Made by a program: the position numbers and the translations under genes. 64,000 nt of DNA from Leifsonia aquatica H1aii (lineage in GTDB: Bacteria > Actinomycetota > Actinomycetes > Actinomycetales > Microbacteriaceae). The stretch spans positions 1 through 64,000 of the forward strand of contig NZ_AYMR01000024.1 in the NCBI RefSeq assembly GCF_000633535.1, read 5' to 3'. This document shows positions 10,554-64,000 of the stretch, piece by piece (position 1 is the first letter of the stretch; the number at the start of each line of letters is the position of its first letter). The notes beneath the pieces were generated by a model. That model was not told where the DNA came from, ran no database searches, and worked only from the letters and a program-made list of their open reading frames with translations.

Positions 10554-12605
10554 ATGAGATCTCCCGCGCTCTCACGCGCCCTCACGAAGTCGAAGACCCG
10601 AACGGTCCTGGCCGCAGCGGGGGTGGCCGCCGTCGTGGGCGCGGCCACCTTCGCGGGCGGCCTGGCCTTCGCTGCAGGCGGGCTCAACCCGCCCGCCGAG
10701 AACCCCGCTGTGATCTACGCGCCCAACGCCATCCCGGATCGCGTCATCCTCACGCCGAGCTCGACCCCCGCCGTCACCCAGAACGTCTCGTGGCGCACCG
10801 CGAAGGGCGTCGCCGCGAAGGTGCAGCTCTCGCCGCTGAGGAAGGGCCCGGTCACCCCCGCCGGGACATTCGACGCGACCACCACCGTCCAGTTCTCGAC
10901 CGACCTGGGCTACGACATCGCCTACCACACGGCGACGATGACCGGGCTGTCGCCCGCCACGGGCTACCTCTACCGCGTGGGCGACGGCGACACGTGGAGC
11001 GAGTGGTTCGAGTTCCAGACCGCAGCCGACGGCGCGCAGGACTTCTCGTTCCTCATCCAGGGCGATGCGCAGAACGACATCAAGGCCTACGCCTCCCGTG
11101 CCTTCCGCGCCGCGTTCGAGGCGCGCCCGTACGCGAAGGCCGTGGTGCACCTCGGCGACCTGATCGACACCGACGTCTCCGACGCCGAATGGGGCGGGTG
11201 GAACGAGGCGGCCGGCTTCCAGAACGGCTACCTGAACGTGCTCGCCGCCCCCGGCAACCACGAGTACTACCCGGGCCCGCAGCTCACCAAGTACTGGGGC
11301 GCGCAGTTCGAGTACCCGCGGAACGGGCCGACCGGCTCGACCGAGGTCACCAGCTACTTCGACGAGAACACGTACTACGTCGACTACCAGGGTGTGCGGT
11401 TCATCTCCCTCAACGCGAACGCCGCTCCCGGCGCCATGCTCGACGCCGAAACCGCATGGCTCGACCGGGTGCTCGCCGGCAACCCCAACCAGTGGACGGT
11501 CGCCTACATGCACCAGCCGCTGTTCTCGGTCACCAGCGGCCGCGACAACAAGACCGAGCGCGACGCCTGGCTTCCCCTCTTCGAGAAGTACGACACCGAC
11601 CTGGTGCTCGCCGGTCACGATCACGCCTACGGCCGCGGCAACCTCTTCGCCAACGAGAAGGACCTGCCCGCGGGCGCCGACGCGAAGTCCAGCCAGACCG
11701 GCCCGGTCTACCTGGTGACGGTCGCCGGTCCGAAGGCGTACGTCCCGGACCCGGTGGCGTCGAACAACTGGATCACCAACGGCGCCAACATGCGCAGCAT
11801 GAACCACGACGCGCAGATGTACCAGACGGTCGACGTCACGGACGGCGAGATGCACGTCGAGAGCCACTTGGTGACCGGTGAGCTGTTCGACGGCTTCACG
11901 ATCACCAAGAAGGATGGCGCGAAGCTCGTCACGGACGACACGAAGGCGCGCGCGTCGGGACCGGGCTCGGACCGCGCCGCGTACACCGCGCCGCAGCTGC
12001 CGATCCCGGCCACCCCGGGCGCGACGCCGCAGCCGACCTCGACCCCGGAACCGACCTCGACGCCGGAGCCGACGTCCACGCCGCAGCCCACGTCGACCCC
12101 GACGTCCACGCCGCAGCCCACGTCGACCCCGACCTCCACGCCGACCGGCCAGCCCACACCGCAGCCGACCCCGTCGGCCAGCCCCTCGACTCCTGAGCTC
12201 TCGGTGACCGGAGTGGCGGCGGGCGGCGCCCTGCAGATCAAGGGCGGCGGGTTCGCGGCGAACGAGGACCTCGAGGTCACGCTGCACAGCGACCCGGTCA
12301 CCCTCGGCAACTTCGCGGCGGAGGCCGACGGCAGCTACTTCGCCACGCTCCGCATCCCCGCCGACACGGCCCCGGGCCAGCACCGGATCGAGGTGCGCGG
12401 GCTGGAGTCCGGTGCCGTCGTCAGCGTGCCGCTCACGGTCCTCGCGGCCGGCTCGCCGAGCACCGGTGTCCGTGACCTCGCGGCCACCGGCTCGAATGCC
12501 CTCGCCATCGGCATCCCACTCGCCCTCGGCGGTGCGGCGCTCCTCGCCGGCGGCGTCATCGTGGTGCTCCGCACCCGACGCAAGCAGGACGGAGCCGAGG
12601 CCTGA
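10554..12605 (+). CDS. wall-anchored purple-acid-phosphatase-like metallophosphoesterase
   Basis: A 683-residue secreted protein. Residues 1-40 form a signal peptide ending near AFAAG; a fibronectin-III-like purple-acid-phosphatase N-terminal domain follows (about 45-155); the metallophosphoesterase core (about 160-440) shows GDAQND, GDLIDT, GNHEY, the MHQPLF histidine and GHDHAYGR metal ligands. Residues about 489-545 are a Pro/Thr/Ser stalk of repeated PTSTP units, then a beta-sandwich module, and the C-terminus has LAATG at 642-646, a transmembrane helix and an RTRRK tail, the layout of a class-E sortase substrate. It presumably releases phosphate from organic esters outside the cell. The upstream PHO-box-like repeats fit phosphate control. 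Confidence 0.88.
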   Translation: MRSPALSRALTKSKTRTVLAAAGVAAVVGAATFAGGLAFAAGGLNPPAENPAVIYAPNAIPDRVILTPSSTPAVTQNVSWRTAKGVAAKVQLSPLRKGPVTPAGTFDATTTVQFSTDLGYDIAYHTATMTGLSPATGYLYRVGDGDTWSEWFEFQTAADGAQDFSFLIQGDAQNDIKAYASRAFRAAFEARPYAKAVVHLGDLIDTDVSDAEWGGWNEAAGFQNGYLNVLAAPGNHEYYPGPQLTKYWGAQFEYPRNGPTGSTEVTSYFDENTYYVDYQGVRFISLNANAAPGAMLDAETAWLDRVLAGNPNQWTVAYMHQPLFSVTSGRDNKTERDAWLPLFEKYDTDLVLAGHDHAYGRGNLFANEKDLPAGADAKSSQTGPVYLVTVAGPKAYVPDPVASNNWITNGANMRSMNHDAQMYQTVDVTDGEMHVESHLVTGELFDGFTITKKDGAKLVTDDTKARASGPGSDRAAYTAPQLPIPATPGATPQPTSTPEPTSTPEPTSTPQPTSTPTSTPQPTSTPTSTPTGQPTPQPTPSASPSTPELSVTGVAAGGALQIKGGGFAANEDLEVTLHSDPVTLGNFAAEADGSYFATLRIPADTAPGQHRIEVRGLESGAVVSVPLTVLAAGSPSTGVRDLAATGSNALAIGIPLALGGAALLAGGVIVVLRTRRKQDGAEA

Positions 12606-15600: not shown

Positions 15601-16777
15601 CCACGGGCTCGTCTACGTCGGCTACACGGGCACGGCGGCCGGAACGGGCGGATTCTCGGTGCACCGCATCGCGACCGGCGATAAGGTGGCCGACCTGGCG
15701 GATCCGAAGTTCGGCAAGGACGGCTACGGCATCTCGGTCGATGAGGAGCGCCAGCGGGTGTTCGTCTCCAACCGCGACTTCCGGCTCAACCCGCCCGGGT
15801 CCGAGTCGAAAGCAGTGGCGGTGACCATCAGCCAGCGCAACGGCGTGGCCCCGACGAATCCGGGCACCGACCCGGGAACGGACCCCGGCACGAATCCCGG
15901 AACCGGCACCCCGCCGGCCGGGACCGGCTACACGCCGACCGCGCTGAAGGCCGTGCCGTCGGCGACGGACAACGCGGACCTCGACGTCAAGCCGGTCGGC
16001 TCGGTCGTCGATCCCGTCTCGGGCCACCTGTTCGTCGGCAACGAGATGCGCCCGGCACGGGTGCTCGAGATCGATCCCGTCACCGACAAGCTCGTCGCCA
16101 CCCACGCCGTTCCCGGCGGTGAAGCGGAGGGCGTCCGCGACGTCGCGATCGACAGCGCGAAGGGCGAGCTCTACGTGGCCTATGGCGCGGCCTGGGCCGT
16201 GCTCGACACCAAGACGGACACGGTCAAGCGCGGGCCCTTCACCTTCGCGGCGAACGTGCGCGGGCTTGACGTCGACCTCGCCACCGGCCGCGTGTTCGGC
16301 GCCACCCGCCAGACCGGCTTCCAGGTGATGGACGCGTACACGGGCGCGGCCATCACGACCGTCGACACCGCGGGCGCCGCCAACTGGACGTCGCACGGCA
16401 TCGCCGTCGACACCGTGGCGAACCGTCTCTACGTCACGAACGACAATGCGGCGGGCACGGAGGGCGTGCGCGTCTACGACGCGACGACCTACGCACTGCT
16501 GCAGACCGTGTCCGTGGCGAAGCCGGACTACCGCTCCATCGCGGTGGACCCGGCCGCCGGTCGCCTCTACATCGGTCACTCGACCGACACGTTCGAGGCG
16601 AGCGGGGTGCGCGTCCTGAAGGCCGCCGATCTCACCGAGATCGCGAACTTCTCGGCACACGCCTACGGCAACAAGGTCTACGGCGTCTCAGTCGACGCGT
16701 CGAAGGGCGTCGTGTACGTCTCGGCACGCGACCGCTACCCGGCCGCCCTCATCGCCCTGCAGCGCGCGGCGAAGTAA
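12659..16777 (+). CDS. secreted purple-acid-phosphatase-like enzyme with YVTN beta-propeller
   Basis: A 1372-residue secreted paralogue of the preceding gene. A basic signal peptide (to about residue 42) leads into the same FN3-like and metallophosphoesterase domains, with GDVQNG, GDLIDS, GNHEYE, the YFHHPVF histidine and GHDHNYGR near residue 350. From about residue 500 on it carries three YVTN-type propeller regions; the first two are near-identical 287-residue copies. There is no sortase motif or C-terminal helix, so it is probably released. The ATG at 12659 has GAAAGG upstream and gives the better signal peptide; an ATG at 12605 overlapping the previous stop codon is the alternative. Cotranscribed with the first phosphatase. 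Confidence 0.85.
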   Translation: MTNSSRHRRTKPRLLGALAAVAVACGMLAPVAGVAQTASAATVPAAQQYVPTRVPDRVVLTPAADAATAQSVTWRTSTAVTSGQARAEIRVAVSQAYRTDVTTVPAAENTTIDSGFGYQTSYHTVRFTGLSPKTKYQYRVGDGTTWSEWQHFSTAAKTAEPFSFIYLGDVQNGIKSDASRVIRNAFRDRPDAKMVLQAGDLIDSANDDSQWGEVFKAAGYQFGEQNYLAAAGNHEYEGDTLSRQWQAQFDYPANGPKDAAAASVLDGTVHYNDYQGVRFVSLNSNITESKALAVQTAWLESVLKDNPNQWTVVYFHHPVFSLDEGRNNTAIRQAWVPLFEKYNVDLVLQGHDHNYGRGNSNAAEKDLPAGWNNELNYDGPVYAVSVVGSKMYSNAGPRLWTSNDAHLRKLKGDTELYQLIDVSGGTLRYEARTADGQYYDGLTIVKNAAGKAVTDDSKPDKIDGNTSPCLGCTPNPDPGGENPGTENPDQTVDYRVVKQLSSVNKSNAQLPAGSAYSQSKKRLYLGDQNGRSIFELDPDTDAVTRSMTLPENIRDLGIDDEKQLLYVGQQNRNWVVVSIADANFGQVVRGPYTFIESNRSIDVDPVAGLVYGAIPSRGVEVLNASDGKSLGVINGTADAYYVAADPKTGIVTTAYFRDADGAVNVAAFDPKKDYAQVWEKVTRPNARQLDVDSAHGLVYVGYTGTATGSGGFSVLDIATGKQLGDFADPKYGKDGYGISVDEERQRVFVSNRDFRLNPPGSESTAVAVTMSERVLDDTFEYTPSASIVSVNKSNAQLPAGSAYSQSKKRLYLGDQNSRSIFELDPDTDTVTRSMTLPENIRDLGIDDEKQLLYVGQQNRNWVVVSIADANFGQVVRGPYAFIESNRSIDVDPVAGLVYGAIPSRGVEVLNALDGKSLGVINGTVDSYYVAADPKSGIIATAYFEDADGAINIAAFDPKKDYAQVWEKVTRPNARQLDIDSAHGLVYVGYTGTAAGTGGFSVHRIATGDKVADLADPKFGKDGYGISVDEERQRVFVSNRDFRLNPPGSESKAVAVTISQRNGVAPTNPGTDPGTDPGTNPGTGTPPAGTGYTPTALKAVPSATDNADLDVKPVGSVVDPVSGHLFVGNEMRPARVLEIDPVTDKLVATHAVPGGEAEGVRDVAIDSAKGELYVAYGAAWAVLDTKTDTVKRGPFTFAANVRGLDVDLATGRVFGATRQTGFQVMDAYTGAAITTVDTAGAANWTSHGIAVDTVANRLYVTNDNAAGTEGVRVYDATTYALLQTVSVAKPDYRSIAVDPAAGRLYIGHSTDTFEASGVRVLKAADLTEIANFSAHAYGNKVYGVSVDASKGVVYVSARDRYPAALIALQRAAK
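14163..15839 (+). repeat. 861-bp in-frame tandem duplication inside the propeller phosphatase gene
   Basis: The DNA from about 14163 to 14978 recurs from about 15024 to 15839 at a constant offset of 861 bp (287 codons), with long blocks identical at nucleotide level, for example the segment around 14321-14350 and 15182-15211. Confidence 0.85.
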
Positions 16778-55676: not shown

Positions 55677-56606
55677 ATGAGCACGCGCGCGCTGTCCGTC
55701 GATCCGCTGTGGCCCCGTGCGGGGGACTGGCCCGGGCTCGCGGCACTCCCAGCAGAGCAGCGCGCCGACCTGACCGTGCTCGGCATCCCGACCTGGCGCA
55801 CGTCGCTCTCGCCGACCGGAGCGCACGCGACGCCTGCGGCGGTCCGCGGAGCGCTCCGACGCTACGCCGCGCACGCGGACGGACCGGACCTCGACCGGTT
55901 GCGGTTCGCCGACGCGGGCGACGTGACGGAGCCCGACGGTGCGGATGGCGAAGCGCGCGCCATCGCCGCGATGCGTGCCGCCGTCGCGCGTTCCACCCTG
56001 ACCGTGGCCGTCGGCGGCGACAACGCGCTCACCGTGCCGGCCGCGCTGGGGTCGTACGGGGACGACCTCCCCACCGCCGGACTGATCACGCTGGACGCGC
56101 ATCACGACCTGCGGGACGGGGTCTCGAACGGCTCCCCGGTGCGGCGACTGGTCGACGCGGGGCTGTCCGGAACGCGCATCGTGCAGATCGGCATCGCCGA
56201 CTTCGCCAACTCGGCGGCCTACACCCGCCGCGCGGCCGACCTCGGGATCACGGTGGTCGCCCGGGACGCCCTGCATCGGCGACCCCTGGACGACGTGATG
56301 GCCGAGGCCCTCGAGATCGCCGGGGCCGCGGGCGGCCCGATCCACGTCGATCTCGACGTGGACGTCTGCGACCGCTCCGTCGCACCGGGCTGCCCGGCGT
56401 CGGTGCCGGGAGGCCTCGCCGCGTGGGAGCTGCGACGTCTGGCGCGACGGGCGGCGGCGTCCCCGCTGGTGCGATCGATCGACATCGCCGAGGTGGACGC
56501 GACCGCCGACGCCCCCGACGAGCGCACGGTGCGTCTCGCCGCGCTCCTCGTGCTGGAGGCCGCCGCCGGGGTCGCCGCGCGCAGCGTCCCGGGGAACGAC
56601 AGCTAA
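55677..56606 (+). CDS. hutG: formimidoylglutamase
   Basis: A 309-residue ureohydrolase of the arginase fold that splits N-formimidoyl-glutamate to glutamate and formamide, the last step of histidine degradation. Metal-binding motifs GGDNAL, LDAHHDLRDG and HVDLDVDVCDR are present with the Asp/His ligands of the dimanganese site. The assignment to formimidoylglutamase rather than agmatinase rests on the hut neighbours. No Shine-Dalgarno site; the ATG follows TACCGT by six bases. Separated from the hutHUI operon on the other strand and convergent with hutI, but sharing an operator with it. Confidence 0.88.
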   Translation: MSTRALSVDPLWPRAGDWPGLAALPAEQRADLTVLGIPTWRTSLSPTGAHATPAAVRGALRRYAAHADGPDLDRLRFADAGDVTEPDGADGEARAIAAMRAAVARSTLTVAVGGDNALTVPAALGSYGDDLPTAGLITLDAHHDLRDGVSNGSPVRRLVDAGLSGTRIVQIGIADFANSAAYTRRAADLGITVVARDALHRRPLDDVMAEALEIAGAAGGPIHVDLDVDVCDRSVAPGCPASVPGGLAAWELRRLARRAAASPLVRSIDIAEVDATADAPDERTVRLAALLVLEAAAGVAARSVPGNDS

Positions 56607-56679
56607 TGGTCACGGCACGCCGCGGACGGCGCCCACCGCGCGGCGGGTCCCGCCGACCGGACCCCGAGGGCGTGCGGGA

Positions 56680-57846
56680 TCAGACGCCGCCGACGACGGT
56701 GCGGGAGACCAGGGGAACGCCGGGGCGGTAGGCGAGGTGCACGGACGACGGCGCGTCGAGCACGACGTAGTCGGCGCGCGCCCCCACGCGCAGGTGCCCC
56801 ACGTCGTCCCGGCGCAGCGATTCGGCGCCGCCGAGGGTCGCGGCTCGCAGCGCCTCGCCCACGGTCATGCCCATGTCACGCACCGCGACCGCGATGCAGA
56901 ACGCCATCGACGATGTGAACGACGATCCGGGGTTGCAATCGCTCGCGAGGGCGACGCGCACGCCGGCGTCGATCAGGCGCCGCGCGTCGGGATACGGGTG
57001 ACGCGTCGAGAACTCGACGCCCGGCAGCAGGCCGGCGACGGTGTCGGAGCCGGCGAGCAGCTCGATGTCCCGCTCGGTCGGATACGTGCAGTGGTCCACG
57101 GCGGCGGCGCCGAGCTCGACCGCGAGAGCGATCCCGTCGCCCGGGCCGAGCTGGCTGGCGTGCAGCCGGAGCCCGAGACCGCGCGCGGCGCCGGCGGTGA
57201 GGATGCGCCGCGACTGGTCCGGATCGAACGCCCCGGTCTCGCAGAACACGTCGATCCACCGCGCGTGCGGAGCGCACGCGTCGAGCATCGGGCCGGTCAC
57301 CAGGTCCACGTAGCCGTCGGGGTCGTCGGCGAACTCCGGCGGGATCACATGCGCGCCGAGGAATGTGGTCTCGGCCGTGACCTCCCGCGCCAGCCGGAGC
57401 GAGCGCTCCTCGTCGTTGACGGTCAGCCCGTAGCCGCTCTTCACTTCGAACGTCGTCGTGCCCTGCGCGCGCAACTCGGCCGAGAACCTGTCGATGTGGT
57501 TACGCAGTCGGTCGTCGCTCGCGGCGCGTGTGGCAGCCACGGTGCTGCGTATGCCGCCCGCAGAATACGGGCGCCCGGCCATCCGCGCCTCGAACTCCCC
57601 CGAACGGTCCCCGGCGAAGACGAGGTGTGTATGGCTGTCCACGAAGCCCGGCAGCACGGCGGCCCCGCCCGCGTCCCGCACCTCGTCCGCATCGGCGTGC
57701 GGTGCGTCGCCGGCGGGACCGGTCCACGCGATCCGCCCGTCCACGCTCAGCAGCGCGGCGTCGTGCACGATGCCGAGCGGGCCGTCGTGCACGGGATCGA
57801 AGGTGACCAGCTCGCCGATCCCGGTGAGCAGGGACGCGCGCGTCAT
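56680..57846 (-). CDS. hutI: imidazolonepropionase
   Basis: A 388-residue amidohydrolase opening imidazolone-propionate to formimidoylglutamate. Motifs: [12 protein letters not shown] (metal HxH), [30 protein letters not shown] and [13 protein letters not shown], all standard for HutI. The open frame extends upstream, but the ATG at 57846 overlaps the urocanase stop codon (ATGA) and begins the normal N-terminus. Last gene of the hutH-hutU-hutI operon. Confidence 0.93.
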
Positions 57847-59585
57847 CAGGCGCCCTCGGACTCCGGGCCGGTGGATCCGCCGGTGCGGGAGGCGCGGTCG
57901 GCGTGCTCGCGCATCGGCACGCGCAGACCGCGCTCGGCGGCGACCTCCACCGCCCGCTCGTAGCCTGCGTCGACGTGCCGCATGACGCCCGTCCCCGGGT
58001 CGTTCACCAGTACGCGCTCGATCTTCTCTGCGGCGAGCGGCGTGCCGTCGGCCACCACGACCTGGCCCGCGTGGATGCTGCGGCCGATACCCACCCCGCC
58101 GCCGTGGTGCAGCGACACCCAGGTCGCTCCCGAGGCCGTGTTGAGCAGCGCGTTCAGCAGCGGCCAGTCGGCGATCGCGTCGGAGCCGTCGGCCATCGCC
58201 TCCGTCTCCCGGTACGGGGACGCGACGGAGCCGGAGTCGAGGTGGTCGCGGCCGATGACGATCGGGGCGCTCAACTCGCCGTTCGCGACCATCTCGTTGA
58301 ACTTCAGTCCGGCACGGTGCCGCTCCTGGTAGCCCAGCCAGCAGATCCGCGCCGGGAGGCCTTCGAACGGCACCTTCTCGCCGGCCTGCGTGATCCAGCG
58401 GCGGAGGTGCTCGTTCTCGGGGAAGAGCTCGAGGATCGCGCGGTCGGTCGCGGCGATGTCGGCCGGGTCGCCGGAGAGCGCCGCCCACCGGAACGGCCCC
58501 TTGCCCTCGGCGAAGAGCGGGCGGATGTAGGCGGGGACGAACCCGGGGAACGCGAAGGCCCGGTCGTACCCGCCGAGCTGGGCTTCGATGCGGATCGAGT
58601 TGCCGTAGTCGAAGACTTCCGCGCCCGCGTCGAGGAAGCCGACCATCGCCTCCACCTGGGCGGCCATCGACGATCGTGCCGCGTCGGTGAACCACTCCGG
58701 GTCTGCGGCCGCGCGGTCGTGCCACTCCTCGACGGAGACCCCGATCGGCAGGTAGCTGAGCGGATCGTGGGCGCTGGTCTGGTCTGTCACGATGTCGATC
58801 GGGACGCCGCGGCGCAGGAGCTCGGGGAAGACCTCGGCGGCATTGCCCACGAGGCCGACCGAGAGGGCGCGCCCCTCGTCCTTCGCTGTGACGGCGCGGG
58901 TGACGGCGTCGTCGATGTCGTCGGCCAGCTCGTCGAGGTAGCCGTGGTCGACCCGGCGCTGCAGGCGCGCGCGGTCGACATCGACGATCAGGACGGCACC
59001 CCCGTTGAGGGTGACCGCGAGCGGCTGCGCCCCGCCCATCCCGCCGCACCCGCCGGTCAGGGTCAGTGTGCCGGCGAGGGAGGCGTCACTCTGCCCGTCG
59101 CGCCCGCCCCGCCGGGCGGCGAGCGTGCGGGCGACGGCGCCGAACGTCTCGTAGGTGCCCTGCAGGATGCCCTGCGAGCCGATGTAGATCCACGACCCGG
59201 CGGTCATCTGGCCATACATGGTCAGGCCGAGCGCCTCCAGCCGGCGGAACTCGGGCCAGGTGGCCCAGTCGCCGACGAGGTTCGAGTTGGCGATGAGCAC
59301 CCGCGGCGCCCACTCGTGGGTGCGGAACACCCCGACCGGCTTGCCGGACTGGACGAGAAGGGTCTCGTCCGCTTCGAGGTCCCGGAGGGTCTCGACGATG
59401 GCGTCGAAGGCCTCCCAGCTGCGGGCCGCGCGGCCGGTGCCGCCGTAGACGACGAGGTCGTCGGGGCGCTCGGCCACCTCCGGGTCGAGGTTGTTCATCA
59501 GCATGCGCAGCGGGGCCTCCGTCTGCCAGCTCTTCGCGGTCAGCTGCGTTCCGTGCGCGGCGCGCACCGCTCTCGCTCCGTCCAT
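57846..59585 (-). CDS. hutU: urocanate hydratase
   Basis: A 579-residue NAD-dependent hydratase converting urocanate to imidazolonepropionate. Recognised by the N-terminal [30 protein letters not shown], the NAD-binding [13 protein letters not shown] and [13 protein letters not shown] near residue 425. The ATG at 59585 follows GAAGGAG; the frame is open a further 23 codons. It sits 109 bases after hutH with a hairpin in the gap. Confidence 0.95.
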
Positions 59586-59610
59586 GGGTCTCGACTCCTT
59601 CGGGGTCCCG

Positions 59611-59639
59611 CCGAGAAGGCGAACTCTTCGCCCTCTCGG
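59611..59639 (-). other. hairpin between hutH and hutU
   Basis: CCGAGAAGGCGAA pairs with TTCGCCCTCTCGG at 12 of 13 positions with a three-base loop. It may be an attenuator or an RNA-processing/stability element in the hut transcript. Confidence 0.5.
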
Positions 59640-59694
59640 CTGATTTCTGTGCATTTTCTGCCCACTCGGTGAGCAGGAGGTGGAGGGATGGTGG

Positions 59695-61245
59695 TCAGGT
59701 GAGGGGTGTGGGGAGGGCGGCGTCGGCGGCGTCGAGCAGGGTGCCGGAGGCGACGAGCGCGACGGCGGCCTCGATCTCGGGGGAGAGGTAGCGGTCCGGG
59801 CCGGGCCCGGCCACCGACTCTCGCAGCGCAGCGGTCACGGCACCGGTGGCAGGGCCCTGCACGAGAGGTGCGCGCAGATCGGCGCCGCGCGAGGCGGTGA
59901 GCACCTCGATCGCGAGCACCCGGGTCAGCCCATCGACGGCACGGCGGAGCTTGCGGCCGGCGGCCCAGCCCATCGACACGTGATCCTCCTGCATGGCGGA
60001 GGACGGGATGGAGTCTGCCGATGCCGGAGTCGCGAGCCGCTTCAGCTCCGAGACGATGCCCGCCGCGGTGTACTGCGCGATCATCAGTCCGGAGTCGACC
60101 CCCACCTCGTGGGCGAGGAACGGCGGCAGCCCCTGGTTGCGGGCCGGGTCGAGGAAGCGGTCGGTGCGGCGCTCGGACATGCTCGCCACGTCCGCCACCA
60201 CGATCGCCAGGAAGTCGAGCACGTACGCGACGGGCGCGCCGTGGAAGTTGCCGTTCGACTCGACCCGGCCGTCGAGGGTCAGCACCGGGTTGTCGATCGC
60301 CGCGGCCAGCTCGCGATCGGCGACGGTGGTCGCGTGGGCGACGGTGTCTCGTGCTCCGCCGTGCACCTGGGGAGCGCAGCGCAACGAGTAGGCGTCCTGA
60401 ACCCGGGTGCACTCCGGCCCCTTGTGACTGGCGACGAGCGGGGAGCCGGCGAGCAGCGCGCGCAGGTTGCCGGCCGAGATCGCCTGGCCGGCCTGGGGGC
60501 GCAGCCGCTGCAGGTCGTCGGCGAAGACCGCATCGGTGCCGAGCAGCGCCTCGACGCTGAGGGCGGCCGCGATGTCGGCGGTGGTCAGCAGGCGCTGGAG
60601 GTCGTGCAGGGCGAGGGAGAGCATCCCCAGCATCCCGTCGGTGCCGTTGATGAGCGCCAGGCCCTCCTTCTCGGCGAGCACCAGCGGCTCGATCCCGGCC
60701 GCGGCCAGCGCGTCAGCGGCGTCGACCAGGTCGCCGTCGACGCGCACCTGGCCCTCGCCCATGGCCGCGAGGGCGCAATGGGCGAGTGGGGCGAGGTCCC
60801 CGGAGCAGCCGAGCGAGCCGTACTCCCGGACGATCGGGGTGATCCCGGCGTTCAGGACGGCGGCGTACGTCTCCACGGTGCGGCGGGTGGCGCCGGCGCG
60901 CCCCGTCGCGAGTGTGGCCAGCCGCAGCAGCATGAGGGCGCGCACGACCTCCCGCTCGACCTCCGGCCCGCTCCCGGCCGCGTGCGAGCGCACGAGGCTC
61001 GCCTGCAGCTGGGCGCGGCGCTCGGCGGGGATGAACGTGGTCGCGAGCGCACCGAACCCGGTCGAGATGCCGTAGTGCGGCGCCACGTCGTCGGCGAGGG
61101 CTTCGACGATGGCGCGGGAGGCGCTCACGGCGTCGAGCGCGCCCGGGTCGAGCTCGATGCGCGCGTCATGGCGGGCGACGGCGACGACGTCCGCGACGGT
61201 GAGCGGGGCCGCGCCGACGGTGATGGAGACGGTGGTGGTGGGCAT
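59695..61245 (-). CDS. hutH: histidine ammonia-lyase
   Basis: A 516-residue lyase converting histidine to urocanate and ammonia. The self-forming MIO cofactor tripeptide is Cys147-Ser148-Gly149 in [14 protein letters not shown], where many HutH have Ala-Ser-Gly; [11 protein letters not shown] near residue 55, RNQGLPPFL, and [10 protein letters not shown]-type QEDHVSMGW are conserved active-site segments. The ATG at 61245 follows GAGGATCGGAG. First gene of the operon and divergent from the IclR regulator, with a palindromic operator between them. Confidence 0.95.
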
Positions 61246-61286
61246 GCTCCGATCCTCGTCGCGGTCGCCTCCCGCCGCGTCGGCTG

Positions 61287-61315
61287 TACACTCTTCGGTG
61301 TCCGGGATCCCAGAC
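61287..61315. promoter_or_regulatory. iclR promoter and HutR/IclR operator copy 2
   Basis: TACACT (61287-61292) forms the iclR -10, and GTCCGGGATCCCAGAC (61300-61315, extended to TGT...ACA) lies at its transcription start, also upstream of hutH. Identical to the site at 55607-55622. Confidence 0.75.
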
Positions 61316-61337
61316 ACGAGTCGAGCGAGGAGGCCCG

Positions 61338-62096
61338 ATGAGCAAAGTGCCCGCCGCCGAGAACACGCTGCGCATCCTGGGCCATCTGGCCGCGCAGCGC
61401 GGTCCCATCCCCGCCGCGAGCATCGCGGGCGCCCTCGGGCTGCCACGCTCCACGGTCTACCACCTCCTCGCGGTGCTGGGGGATCACGGTTTCGTCCTGC
61501 ACTTCCCCGAGGCCGGCCGCTTCGGTCTGGGCGTCGCCGCATACGAGCTCTCGAGCGCCTTCTCCCGGCAGGAACCGCTCAGCCGGCTGGGCCGGCCGAT
61601 CGTCGCCGGGCTGGTCGATGCGATCGGCGAGTCCGGGCACGTCGCGGTGCTCCACGGTCGCGATGTCGTCTACATCGTGGAGGAGCGCGCGCCCCGACGT
61701 CCTCGGCTGGTCACCGACGTCGGCGTCCGGCTGCCCGCGCACCTGACCGCGAGCGGCCGGGCCCTGCTCGCGACCCTGCCCGCCGGTCAGCTGCGCGCGC
61801 TCTACCCCGACCGCGACGCCTTCGAGGAGCGGACCGGGGCCGGCCCGCACAGCTACGCGGAGCTGCGCCGCGTGCTGGCCGAGGTGCGCGAGCGCGGCTA
61901 CGCGACGGAGGACGGCGAGGTCACGCCGGGCTTCGCGTCGGTCGCGGTCTCGGTGCGCGATCATGCCGGGTGGCCGGCGGCCGGGATCGCCGTGACCTTC
62001 CCGCGCGAGAACGTGCGTCCCGACGAGTGGGACGCACTCGCCGGACGGGTCCGGGACGCCGCCGCCGAGCTGTCCCGGCGCATCCGCGGCAGCTGA
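61338..62096 (+). CDS. IclR-family regulator, probably of histidine utilisation
   Basis: A 252-residue regulator. Residues about 5-65 are the winged helix (AENTLRILGHLAAQRGPIPA, LGLPRSTVYHLLAVLGDHGF), and residues 75-250 the IclR effector domain (HLTASGRALLATLPAGQL). ATG follows GAGGAGG. Divergent from hutHUI; the shared palindrome at the two hut promoters is its probable binding site, with urocanate or histidine as a likely effector by analogy with other hut regulators. Confidence 0.9.
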   Translation: MSKVPAAENTLRILGHLAAQRGPIPAASIAGALGLPRSTVYHLLAVLGDHGFVLHFPEAGRFGLGVAAYELSSAFSRQEPLSRLGRPIVAGLVDAIGESGHVAVLHGRDVVYIVEERAPRRPRLVTDVGVRLPAHLTASGRALLATLPAGQLRALYPDRDAFEERTGAGPHSYAELRRVLAEVRERGYATEDGEVTPGFASVAVSVRDHAGWPAAGIAVTFPRENVRPDEWDALAGRVRDAAAELSRRIRGS

Positions 62097-62120
62097 GCGC
62101 CCGCGACGCGCAACCCGCTT

Positions 62121-62166
62121 GTCACGACACGCCGCCCCGCCCGGGGCGGAGGCGGCGTGTCGTGAC
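62121..62166. repeat. intergenic palindrome
   Basis: GTCACGACACGCCGCC (62121-62136) pairs perfectly with 62151-62166; the 14-base loop contains its own CCGCC/GGCGG stem. It begins 24 bases after the iclR stop codon and may end that transcript. Confidence 0.8.
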
Positions 62167-62226
62167 GAATGGATTGCGGGAGGGCTGAGGGTGCACGTGC
62201 AGTGAGGGAGGCGGGCATGCATAGAT

Positions 62227-62256
62227 TTGGCATTTCACACGACAGTCGTCTACATT
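62227..62256 (+). promoter_or_regulatory. promoter of the small-peptide/TOMM unit
   Basis: TTGGCA (62227-62232), 18-bp spacer and TACATT (62251-62256); the spacer contains the perfect palindrome ACGAC-A-GTCGT (62239-62249). The region 62215-62270 is clearly more AT-rich than its surroundings. Confidence 0.6.
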
Positions 62257-62345
62257 CTGTGCATATCCGATGATGGAGCCCGATCTCGAAGGCGAGTCAC
62301 GCTCCGGATTCGAACGAACCGCCAGGGCGGTCAGCGGGAGGCGTC

Positions 62346-62447
62346 ATGGAGACGGGTGCGAGTTTCGAGCTGGTCGGCACGACCTGTCGAGACATGCGCG
62401 CGGTGGGACGATGGTCCTCGCCGAGAGCGTCCTCGTGCGCCACGTGA
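62346..62447 (+). CDS. 33-residue small ORF, possible RiPP precursor
   Basis: ATG follows GGGAGG by four bases. The product is METGASFELVGTTCRDMRAV followed by GRWSSPRASSCAT, i.e. an N-terminal part with acidic and hydrophobic residues and a C-terminal part rich in Ser, Cys, Thr and Pro. That is the composition of a leader/core precursor for azol(in)e formation, and the next gene encodes a TOMM leader-binding/E1-like protein. It is below the usual gene-calling size. The alternative is that it is a chance frame and the overlapping ORF 62411-62491 is the translated one. Confidence 0.4.
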   Translation: METGASFELVGTTCRDMRAVGRWSSPRASSCAT

Positions 62448-62491
62448 AGCCCGTCGTCCCTGACCGAGAGCCCACGGAGGCTGCAACGTGA
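62411..62491 (+). CDS. 26-residue small ORF overlapping the next start codon
   Basis: ATG-initiated frame giving MVLAESVLVRHVKPVVPDRE plus PTEAAT, with strongly coding-like third positions and a TGA that overlaps the GTG of the TOMM protein (GTGA). No good ribosome site; the frame is open upstream to 62270. It lies in a different frame from the 33-residue ORF, so at most one of them is likely to be a main product. Confidence 0.3.
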   Translation: MVLAESVLVRHVKPVVPDREPTEAAT

Positions 62492-63489
62492 CTGCACAGA
62501 TGCGGTATTCGATATCGCCACAGGTTCATCTCGGGACCGCGCGCGACGCGGTCTTCGTGTTCGACGCGGAGTCCGCGACTCGGATGAGCGCTCCCGGGCT
62601 GGTTCCGTTCGTGTCGCGCCTGAATGAGACGCTCGGGGCGTCATCCGACGGATTCGACGTTCATGAGATCGCCGAACGCTTCGGCCTATCCGCGGATGAA
62701 CTGGCACCGCTGCTCGACCGCCTGGTCACAGTGAAGATGCTGGTCCGCCACACGGCCGCCACCTCGGCATTCGCGAAGCTCGCCGAGGCGAGTGCCGGCG
62801 GGCTGCTGACGGCTCAGCAGATACAGGCGAACATCGACGCGTGCCGGATCGGAATCGCGGCGCCGGAAGGATCGGTGCTCTCCCGCACGATCACCACCGC
62901 GCTCCTCGGACTCGGGCTCTCCGTCGGAGAGCCGGCCCACGCGGATCTCGTGGTCGTCGTCGGCGACTCACCGATCGATCCGGCGCTGTTCGAGTTCAAT
63001 CGGCGCGCCCTGGAAACGGAGGGGCCACCGTGGCTCGCGGTGACCCCGTTCGACGGGGGGAACGCCTGGGTGGGTCCTCTCCACATTCCGATGCGGTCGG
63101 CGTGCTACACCTGCTTCCACCTGCGGCGGTCCGCGGACTTTCCGGACGAGGTCATCCGCGACGAGCTCCCCGAGCTCCGGGGCCTCGGTTCCGGTCGCGC
63201 GACCGCGACGGAACACCCGATCGACCTCATCGCGGCGGGGGTGGCCGTCACCATCGTGAGCGAATGGGCGGCGTTGCGTCAGCACGCCCCATCGGCGGCG
63301 CCGGGAGCAGTGACCACGATCAGCGTGGAGAGGTCGGGCGTCTCCCTCCGGTGGCACCGAACGCTCCGGGTCCCTCGCTGTCCGGACTGCTCACCCGCCG
63401 CTGGGTCGAGCGTGCCGCGGACCGTGTTCCCCGACGAGTTCGCATCGTGGGCGCGCAGCGGCGATCCGTCGGGCCCCTTGCATGAGTAG
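62488..63489 (+). CDS. TOMM cyclodehydratase-like (E1/ocin-ThiF-like) protein
   Basis: A 333-residue cytosolic protein. Residues about 10-100 look like a winged-helix leader-binding region (VFVFDAESATRMSAPGLVPF, DVHEIAERFGLSADELAPLL), residues 110-300 a degenerate E1/ThiF fold, with the GP..P...C..C block characteristic of bacteriocin cyclodehydratase proteins: Cys206-x-x-Cys209 (CYTC) and Cys298-x-x-Cys301 (CPDC) should bind zinc. Such proteins present the precursor peptide to a YcaO enzyme. No YcaO or dehydrogenase gene is in the window. GTG at 62488 follows GGAGG. It is preceded by its own promoter and small ORFs. Confidence 0.7.
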   Translation: MTAQMRYSISPQVHLGTARDAVFVFDAESATRMSAPGLVPFVSRLNETLGASSDGFDVHEIAERFGLSADELAPLLDRLVTVKMLVRHTAATSAFAKLAEASAGGLLTAQQIQANIDACRIGIAAPEGSVLSRTITTALLGLGLSVGEPAHADLVVVVGDSPIDPALFEFNRRALETEGPPWLAVTPFDGGNAWVGPLHIPMRSACYTCFHLRRSADFPDEVIRDELPELRGLGSGRATATEHPIDLIAAGVAVTIVSEWAALRQHAPSAAPGAVTTISVERSGVSLRWHRTLRVPRCPDCSPAAGSSVPRTVFPDEFASWARSGDPSGPLHE

Positions 63490-63526
63490 CTGACGACGAG
63501 AAGAAGCGGGGCGGAGCGATTCGCGC

Positions 63527-64000
63527 TCATCCCTCGGCGAGCGTGAGGGTCGCCTCCTGTTCGCGGCCGCCGCGGACGAAGGTGACGTGCACCTCGTCGC
63601 CGGCCTTCGAGGTGATCTGCAGGGCGGTGAGCACGTCGACGCTGCTCGCCGGAGTGCCGTTCAGCCGGGTGAGCACGTCTCCTGCACGCAGGCCGGCGCT
63701 CGCCGCGGGGCCGCCCGCGTCGACCGCCGACACGAAGAGGCCGTCGGTGATCCCGTAGGCCGCGGCGACGCCCGGCGGGATGGGCAGGACGTCGAGGCCC
63801 GCCGTCGGGTAGGAGACCTGGCCGTTCTCGATCAGCTCGTGCGCGATGCGCATCGCCGACGACTCCGGCACCGCGAACCCGATGCCGACGCTGCCGGTGC
63901 TGCTCTGGCCCGCGCTGCCCGGGACCGTCGCGATCGCCGTGTTGACCCCGATCAGCCGGCCGCGGCAGTCGACGAGCGCGCCTCCCGAGTTGCCCGGGTT
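63527..64000 (-). CDS. HtrA/DegP-like trypsin-type serine protease with PDZ domain (5' end outside the window)
   Basis: The visible 157 C-terminal residues start in the catalytic region with NPGNSGGALVDCRGRLIGVN (Ser of GNSGG), continue through IGFAVPESSAMRIAHELIENG and end with a PDZ domain (GPAASAGLRAGDVLTRLNGTP ... DEVHVTFVRGGRE). Such proteins are membrane-anchored or exported quality-control proteases. The upstream half with His and Asp lies beyond position 64000. It is convergent with the TOMM protein gene. Confidence 0.9.
   Translation of the reverse strand, partial: NPGNSGGALVDCRGRLIGVNTAIATVPGSAGQSSTGSVGIGFAVPESSAMRIAHELIENGQVSYPTAGLDVLPIPPGVAAAYGITDGLFVSAVDAGGPAASAGLRAGDVLTRLNGTPASSVDVLTALQITSKAGDEVHVTFVRGGREQEATLTLAEG

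Follow-up and report, generated by a model that had tools for sequence, protein, structure and literature searches.

A lone E1-like gene in Leifsonia aquatica H1aii as the very probable in-place remnant of a plantazolicin-type gene cluster

A predicted E1-like gene between IclR and HtrA genes

The window analyzed here, the first 64,000 nucleotides of contig NZ_AYMR01000024.1 from Leifsonia aquatica H1aii (assembly GCF_000633535.1), closes on a site located between an IclR-family regulator gene and an HtrA-type serine protease gene. The gene names hut, IclR, and HtrA were assigned by eye and are presumptive. Two loci from close relatives, L002 (Leifsonia sp. 71-9) and L003 (Arthrobacter sp. H35-MC1), serve as the main points of comparison. 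The site comprises the following features:

61338..62096, + strand: IclR-family regulator gene, which follows the hut genes and forms the left flank; 94% amino acid identity to its counterpart on the left of the L002 cluster
62123..62164, no strand: strong G+C-rich inverted repeat, read directly from the sequence; may serve as the IclR terminator
62217..62345, + strand: promoter TTGGCA-18-TACATT and 5′ leader of the putative lost operon, aligned to L002 7504-7630
62346..62402, + strand: start of a 33-codon ORF, predicted from the alignment to L002 to be the first 19 codons of an ABC-transporter ATPase gene
62403..62487, + strand: junction DNA, whose position fits the 3′ end of an approximately 235-aa J gene; the similarity is not significant
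62488..63489, + strand: intact ORF for a predicted TOMM E1-like (leader peptide-binding, C) protein, from TIGR03882 and the identity to L002 and L003
63482..63492, + strand: ATGAGTAGCTG, which overlaps the E1 stop codon and is the putative beginning of the lost ycaO gene; L002 and L003 have the same overlap
63527..64000, − strand: HtrA-type serine protease gene, the right flank, which continues beyond the window end; 84% nucleotide identity from 63526 to L002 14947-15421

The first-pass annotation of this DNA had described a promoter in AT-rich DNA, a 33-codon ORF with a GGGAGG site and a product ending in WSSPRASSCAT, and a cyclodehydratase-like protein with two CxxC pairs; each of these elements was borne out. 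The TTGGCA hexamer starts at 62227 and TACATT at 62251, with a spacer of 18, and the leader at 62217-62275 has a GC content of 42%, a value equaled or undercut by a fraction of 0.00016 of the 59-bp stretches taken every 10 bases across the window. The 33-codon ORF begins with the ATG at 62346. Short ORFs are plentiful in this region, where 72 of at least 25 aa overlap positions 56000-64000.

In intact TOMM clusters, an E1-like protein binds the leader of the precursor peptide and helps a YcaO protein to cyclize Cys, Ser, and Thr residues. The 333-codon ORF, which has a GTG start behind GGAGG, encodes a protein that scores 55.3 bits against the TOMM precursor leader peptide-binding protein model TIGR03882 (cut-off, 36.9) and matches LynD (4.9e-12) and TruD (1.3e-8) in a sequence search of solved structures. 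The protein falls below the cut-off of the SagC-family model TIGR03603 (27.5 of 187.65), and a Pfam scan returned no match at the gathering score. A profile built from eight E1 rows matches LynD from profile position 71 onward and weakly matches MccB as well (E 0.008). Cys206/209 and Cys298/301 are invariant in all eight E1 proteins aligned, and we take these two CxxC pairs to be a zinc site. Amino acid identity is 68% to the L002 E1 protein and 44 to 46% to that of L003. By these sequence criteria, the product is predicted to be a TOMM E1-like (leader-binding, C) protein, the partner of a cyclodehydratase.

Full clusters in related bacteria

The E1 genes of L002 and L003 are embedded in an operon that encodes an ABC ATPase, an ABC-2 permease, the approximately 235-aa J protein, E1, YcaO, a SagB-family dehydrogenase, a CPBP/Rce1-like protease, a SAM-type methyltransferase, and short precursors, one in L002 and two in L003. 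The J protein has no family match. The L002 protease, which has no NCBIfam match, was named from its 32% identity to the L003 protease, and the L003 methyltransferase has matches of about 1e-23 to 1e-22 to BpumL and BamL, two plantazolicin methyltransferases. Five further loci (L072-L076) were picked from genomes, other than the window's own, with matches at the order level (14 of 396 searched), the family level (5 of 398), and the class level (5 of 394). A YcaO and a SagB gene lie beside the E1 gene in all seven relatives' loci examined (L002, L003, and L072-L076), and a J-like gene of about 235 aa directly precedes the E1 gene in five of the seven (L002, L003, L072, L075, and L076).

A precursor with an Arg followed by a Cys/Ser/Thr core is present in L002, L003, L072, L073, and L074, and the precursor motif scan found none in L075 and L076. 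The cores RCSCTTIACCCCSWG (L002), RCTTTTLISTTCTWA (L003), and RCTCSTVISTTCTWG (L072) follow one pattern of an Arg, five Cys/Ser/Thr, two nonpolar residues, and five more Cys/Ser/Thr. This pattern agrees with the plantazolicin-type precursors described by Cox et al. 2015 (PMC4603692), who also place Clavibacter, Brevibacterium, and Corynebacterium among the actinomycetes with plantazolicin-type clusters. The L002 precursor sits at the end of the cluster opposite the ATPase and promoter.

Several other observations were made in these loci. The precursor-like peptides of L073 (11344-11580, stop to stop; core RCSCTTLPCCCCSGG) and L074 (11181-11345, stop to stop; core RCSCTTVPCCCCCGG) are located near E1, YcaO, and SagB genes in two genomes of the same taxonomic order as the window. 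Two tandem plantazolicin-type precursor ORFs occur in L003 (14663-14788 and 14891-15031, stop to stop), with cores ending in STTCTWA and STTSCWG, and the L003 cluster lies near transposase pieces and a ParA-like gene, both named by eye. In L002, ycaO (near 11906) and HtrA (near 15730-15780) are each split over two frames. These splits are likely sequencing errors in a metagenome-assembled genome, with a run of G near the HtrA break, although the L002 ycaO may really be decaying.

One site in three states

The L002 cluster occupies the same place, between hut/IclR genes and HtrA, as the lone E1 gene of the window. Three strong blocks of similarity connect the two sequences: the IclR gene at 86% nucleotide identity, ending at 62089; the E1 gene at 73%; and, starting at 63526, the right flank at 84%. 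The distance from the IclR stop to the E1 start is 392 bp in the window versus 2731 bp in L002, and the distance from the E1 stop to HtrA is 37 bp versus 3948 bp. Of the approximately nine genes in the L002 cluster, E1 is the sole one left whole at the window site. HtrA homologs were found in all 28 genomes of the genus, and in 13 of the 27 other than the window's own, the IclR and HtrA genes stand side by side, 3 to 238 bp apart, as an empty site. The remaining 14 comprise G012, which carries the full cluster, and 13 uninformative genomes that have no IclR gene within the approximately 1.5 kb fetched at the best HtrA match. E1 matches were confined to 2 of the 28 genomes, the window's own and the one with the full cluster.

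In a tree of the concatenated IclR and HtrA genes (15 sequences), L002 groups with the empty-site locus L027 with 99% support and the window lies outside this pair; a grouping with the empty-site locus L028 has a support of only 67%. Because of this topology, either the cluster was gained before the lineages split and was then lost wholly in some and partly in the window, or it moved together with its flanks.

The first-pass annotation had noted the lack of a YcaO gene nearby and had proposed a search of the rest of the genome. None of the 76 contigs of this assembly, rated 99.96% complete, contains a YcaO match, and a search with the L002 precursor gave no significant match in the genome (best E 3.05). 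The 7.3-kb L002 cluster, used as a DNA query, recovered from the genome the E1 gene and four pieces of 30 to 110 bases among the 40 of 145 candidates that were scored, and the L002 methyltransferase gene had no DNA match in the genome among these 40. The single SagB-type dehydrogenase match in the genome lies elsewhere and below the cut-off (73.4 bits versus 78.4). This SagB-like oxidoreductase gene (L077; G000 contig 11, 139068-139514), whose product shares about 31% identity with the SagB proteins of the clusters, adjoins what appears by eye to be a dihydrolipoamide acyltransferase gene and bears no sign of past membership in this cluster. Across the genus, YcaO proteins above the family cut-off occur in 4 of the 28 genomes, namely, G009 (L059), G012, G022 (L058), and G026 (L057).

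The 33-codon ORF and the two junctions

Similarity to L002 extends from the promoter into the 33-codon ORF. Positions 62139-62402 align with L002 7417-7690, a segment that runs from upstream DNA through the promoter and leader of the cluster into the first ABC ATPase codons, with a score of 94; shuffled sequences scored 30.6 ± 4.8 and none of 1000 reached the observed value. L002 carries CTGGTA-18-TAGATT at the place that matches the window promoter, which is thus conserved between the two. Taken separately, the promoter and leader (62217..62345 versus L002 7504-7630) scored 59, where the best of 500 shuffles, compared against the whole cluster, scored 57; for the ORF start (62332-62402 versus L002 7620-7690), 0 of 500 shuffles reached the score. 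When the first 21 codons were compared with the N terminus of the L002 ATPase in the register anchored at the start codons, there were 8 identities, a count that none of 20,000 shuffles attained. A free local alignment of the same two termini was weaker, being reached by 14 of 2000 shuffles. Of the three ATPase starts compared, the putative stump resembles that of L002 and neither that of L003 nor that of L072.

Because of this alignment and the in-register match, the 33-codon ORF is predicted to start as the stump of an ABC-transporter ATPase gene cut off beyond its promoter-proximal end. The first-pass annotation had read the Ser/Cys/Thr-rich tail as the core of a modified peptide. This tail falls past the stretch aligned to the ATPase, and we rejected the ORF as a precursor peptide gene because it aligns with the promoter-proximal L002 ATPase gene. 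In L002, some 2.4 kb separate the E1 gene from the upstream DNA that matches the small ORF, where the ATPase gene starts. The annotation had further suggested asking whether a small ORF is conserved upstream of E1 homologs; in five of the seven loci examined, the J-like gene stands there instead.

The junction DNA at 62403..62487 may be what is left of the J gene's 3′ end, in diverged form. A 26-codon ORF in this segment (ATG at 62411) was compared with the J gene 3′ end, and the similarity was not significant (198 of 1000 shuffles reached it). At the other side of the E1 gene, the stop codon overlaps the ycaO start in L002 (ATGAATAGCTGG) and L003 (ATGAGTAGTTGG) in the manner of the window overlap. 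The bases after AGCTG gave no convincing alignment to ycaO (89 of 2000 shuffles reached the score) or to the whole L002 cluster (43 of 500).

Selection on the E1 gene

Pairwise comparison of the window and L002 E1 genes yielded a dN of 0.225, a dS of 1.01, and an omega of 0.22; the flanks had omega values of 0.07 in IclR and 0.14 in the final 250 codons of HtrA. The omega of 0.22, together with the whole ORF and both CxxC pairs, implies that selection constrained E1 over most of its past and perhaps still does.

Amino acid replacements were then assigned to the window and L002 branches with six choices of outgroup, and the outcome depended on the choice. The excess on the window branch was significant with two (L003+L072, 17 versus 5, P = 0.017; L003+L072+L075+L076, 7 versus 0, P = 0.016), borderline with two (L003, 31 versus 17, P = 0.06; L072, 30 versus 16, P = 0.054), and absent with two (L075+L076, 13 versus 11; L073+L074+L003, 5 versus 6). 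An excess of first- and second-position changes followed the same two outgroup sets (Fisher P = 0.009 with L003+L072 and 0.008 with L003+L072+L075+L076), with P values of 0.15 to 0.50 for the other four. For the flanks, the replacement counts (window versus L002) were 8 versus 4 (L028), 7 versus 5 (L035), 7 versus 5 (L032), 7 versus 5 (L039), and 2 versus 7 (L037) in IclR and 11 versus 10, 5 versus 2, 6 versus 3, 9 versus 6, and 10 versus 6, with the outgroups in the same order, in the last 250 codons of HtrA. Counts with L027 as the flank outgroup (IclR, 14 versus 0; HtrA, 17 versus 7, toward the window side) were disregarded, since L027 is the sister of L002 in the flank-gene tree.

A C-terminal G-x-P-Q-x-W motif, invariant in all seven orthologs, is broken in the window E1 protein by G308S, Q311R, and W313V. 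The window protein departs at 3 of 35 sites that are invariant in all others, the same number as L072 and L074 and hence not unusual, and at 3 of 47 sites common to at least six of the seven others, which is among the fewest. These data are moderate evidence, dependent on the choice of outgroup, that the constraint on E1 was relaxed after a fairly recent loss, and the protein may still function.

At 1.0, the dS between the two E1 genes (window 62488-63489 and L002 10001-10999) is roughly double the values of the flanks (0.55 and 0.44), and GC3 differs (0.83 versus 0.68). Because of the doubled dS and the GC3 difference at a single site, the two E1 copies may lack a single simple history, having had different residence times or donors.

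Origin of the locus

Very probably, a plantazolicin-type cluster for a thiazole/oxazole peptide antibiotic once occupied the locus, and large deletions left the present remnant in place. We infer the number, order, and time of these deletions as follows. In the ancestor, the cluster would have stood between IclR and HtrA. One deletion would have started near codon 20 of the ABC ATPase gene and ended a short way upstream of E1; another would have started near the fourth codon of ycaO and ended just short of HtrA. What remained would be the promoter of the cluster, the ATPase stump, E1, and the initial bases of ycaO. An E1 protein devoid of YcaO and precursor would have neither partner nor substrate. 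Because both are missing, we infer that the window E1 gene is most likely functionless and decaying, perhaps while still being transcribed from the old promoter.

An E1 protein retained under the old promoter for another job, as a leader-binding protein that captures the precursor or related peptides in immunity or as a decoy, would account for the whole ORF with its GTG behind GGAGG, the low pairwise omega, the few broken conserved sites, and the lack of a replacement excess with two of the six outgroup choices; we nevertheless regard it as improbable given that the conserved C-terminal motif is lost, that the excess on the window branch is significant with two other choices, and that the only other E1 match among the 28 genomes belongs to a full cluster. 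The minimal or split RiPP system proposed in the first-pass annotation, in which the 33-codon product would be a precursor processed by E1 with a YcaO from elsewhere, would fit the good ribosome-binding site and the Ser/Cys/Thr tail but is scarcely credible for an ORF that appears to begin as an ATPase gene, in a nearly complete genome that lacks YcaO, when the relatives' precursors look different and sit elsewhere in the cluster, at the opposite end in L002.

As a remnant, the site would provide a clear case of the disappearance of a RiPP cluster, with one chromosomal site found full, partly deleted, or empty within a single genus. It also calls for caution, as a small ORF beside an orphan RiPP enzyme can turn out to be a stump of another gene. 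Plantazolicin-type clusters are seen here in Leifsonia and Arthrobacter records; none of the literature matches listed names both plantazolicin and Leifsonia, which is no proof that the association is unreported.

Among known systems, the window E1 protein resembles the TOMM E1-like and leader-binding proteins (TIGR03882, the N-terminal parts of LynD and TruD, and MccB) in its family score, its two CxxC pairs, and its match to LynD and TruD. LynD and TruD are fused to YcaO, whereas the window E1 is a discrete protein in a genome without YcaO. Its closest counterparts are plantazolicin-type TOMM clusters, which produce linear azole-containing peptides: the window E1 is orthologous to the C proteins of L002, L003, and L072, and while the YcaO, dehydrogenase, protease, methyltransferase, transporter, and precursor of such clusters are missing from the window site, the cluster promoter, the apparent ATPase start, and the ycaO start are retained.
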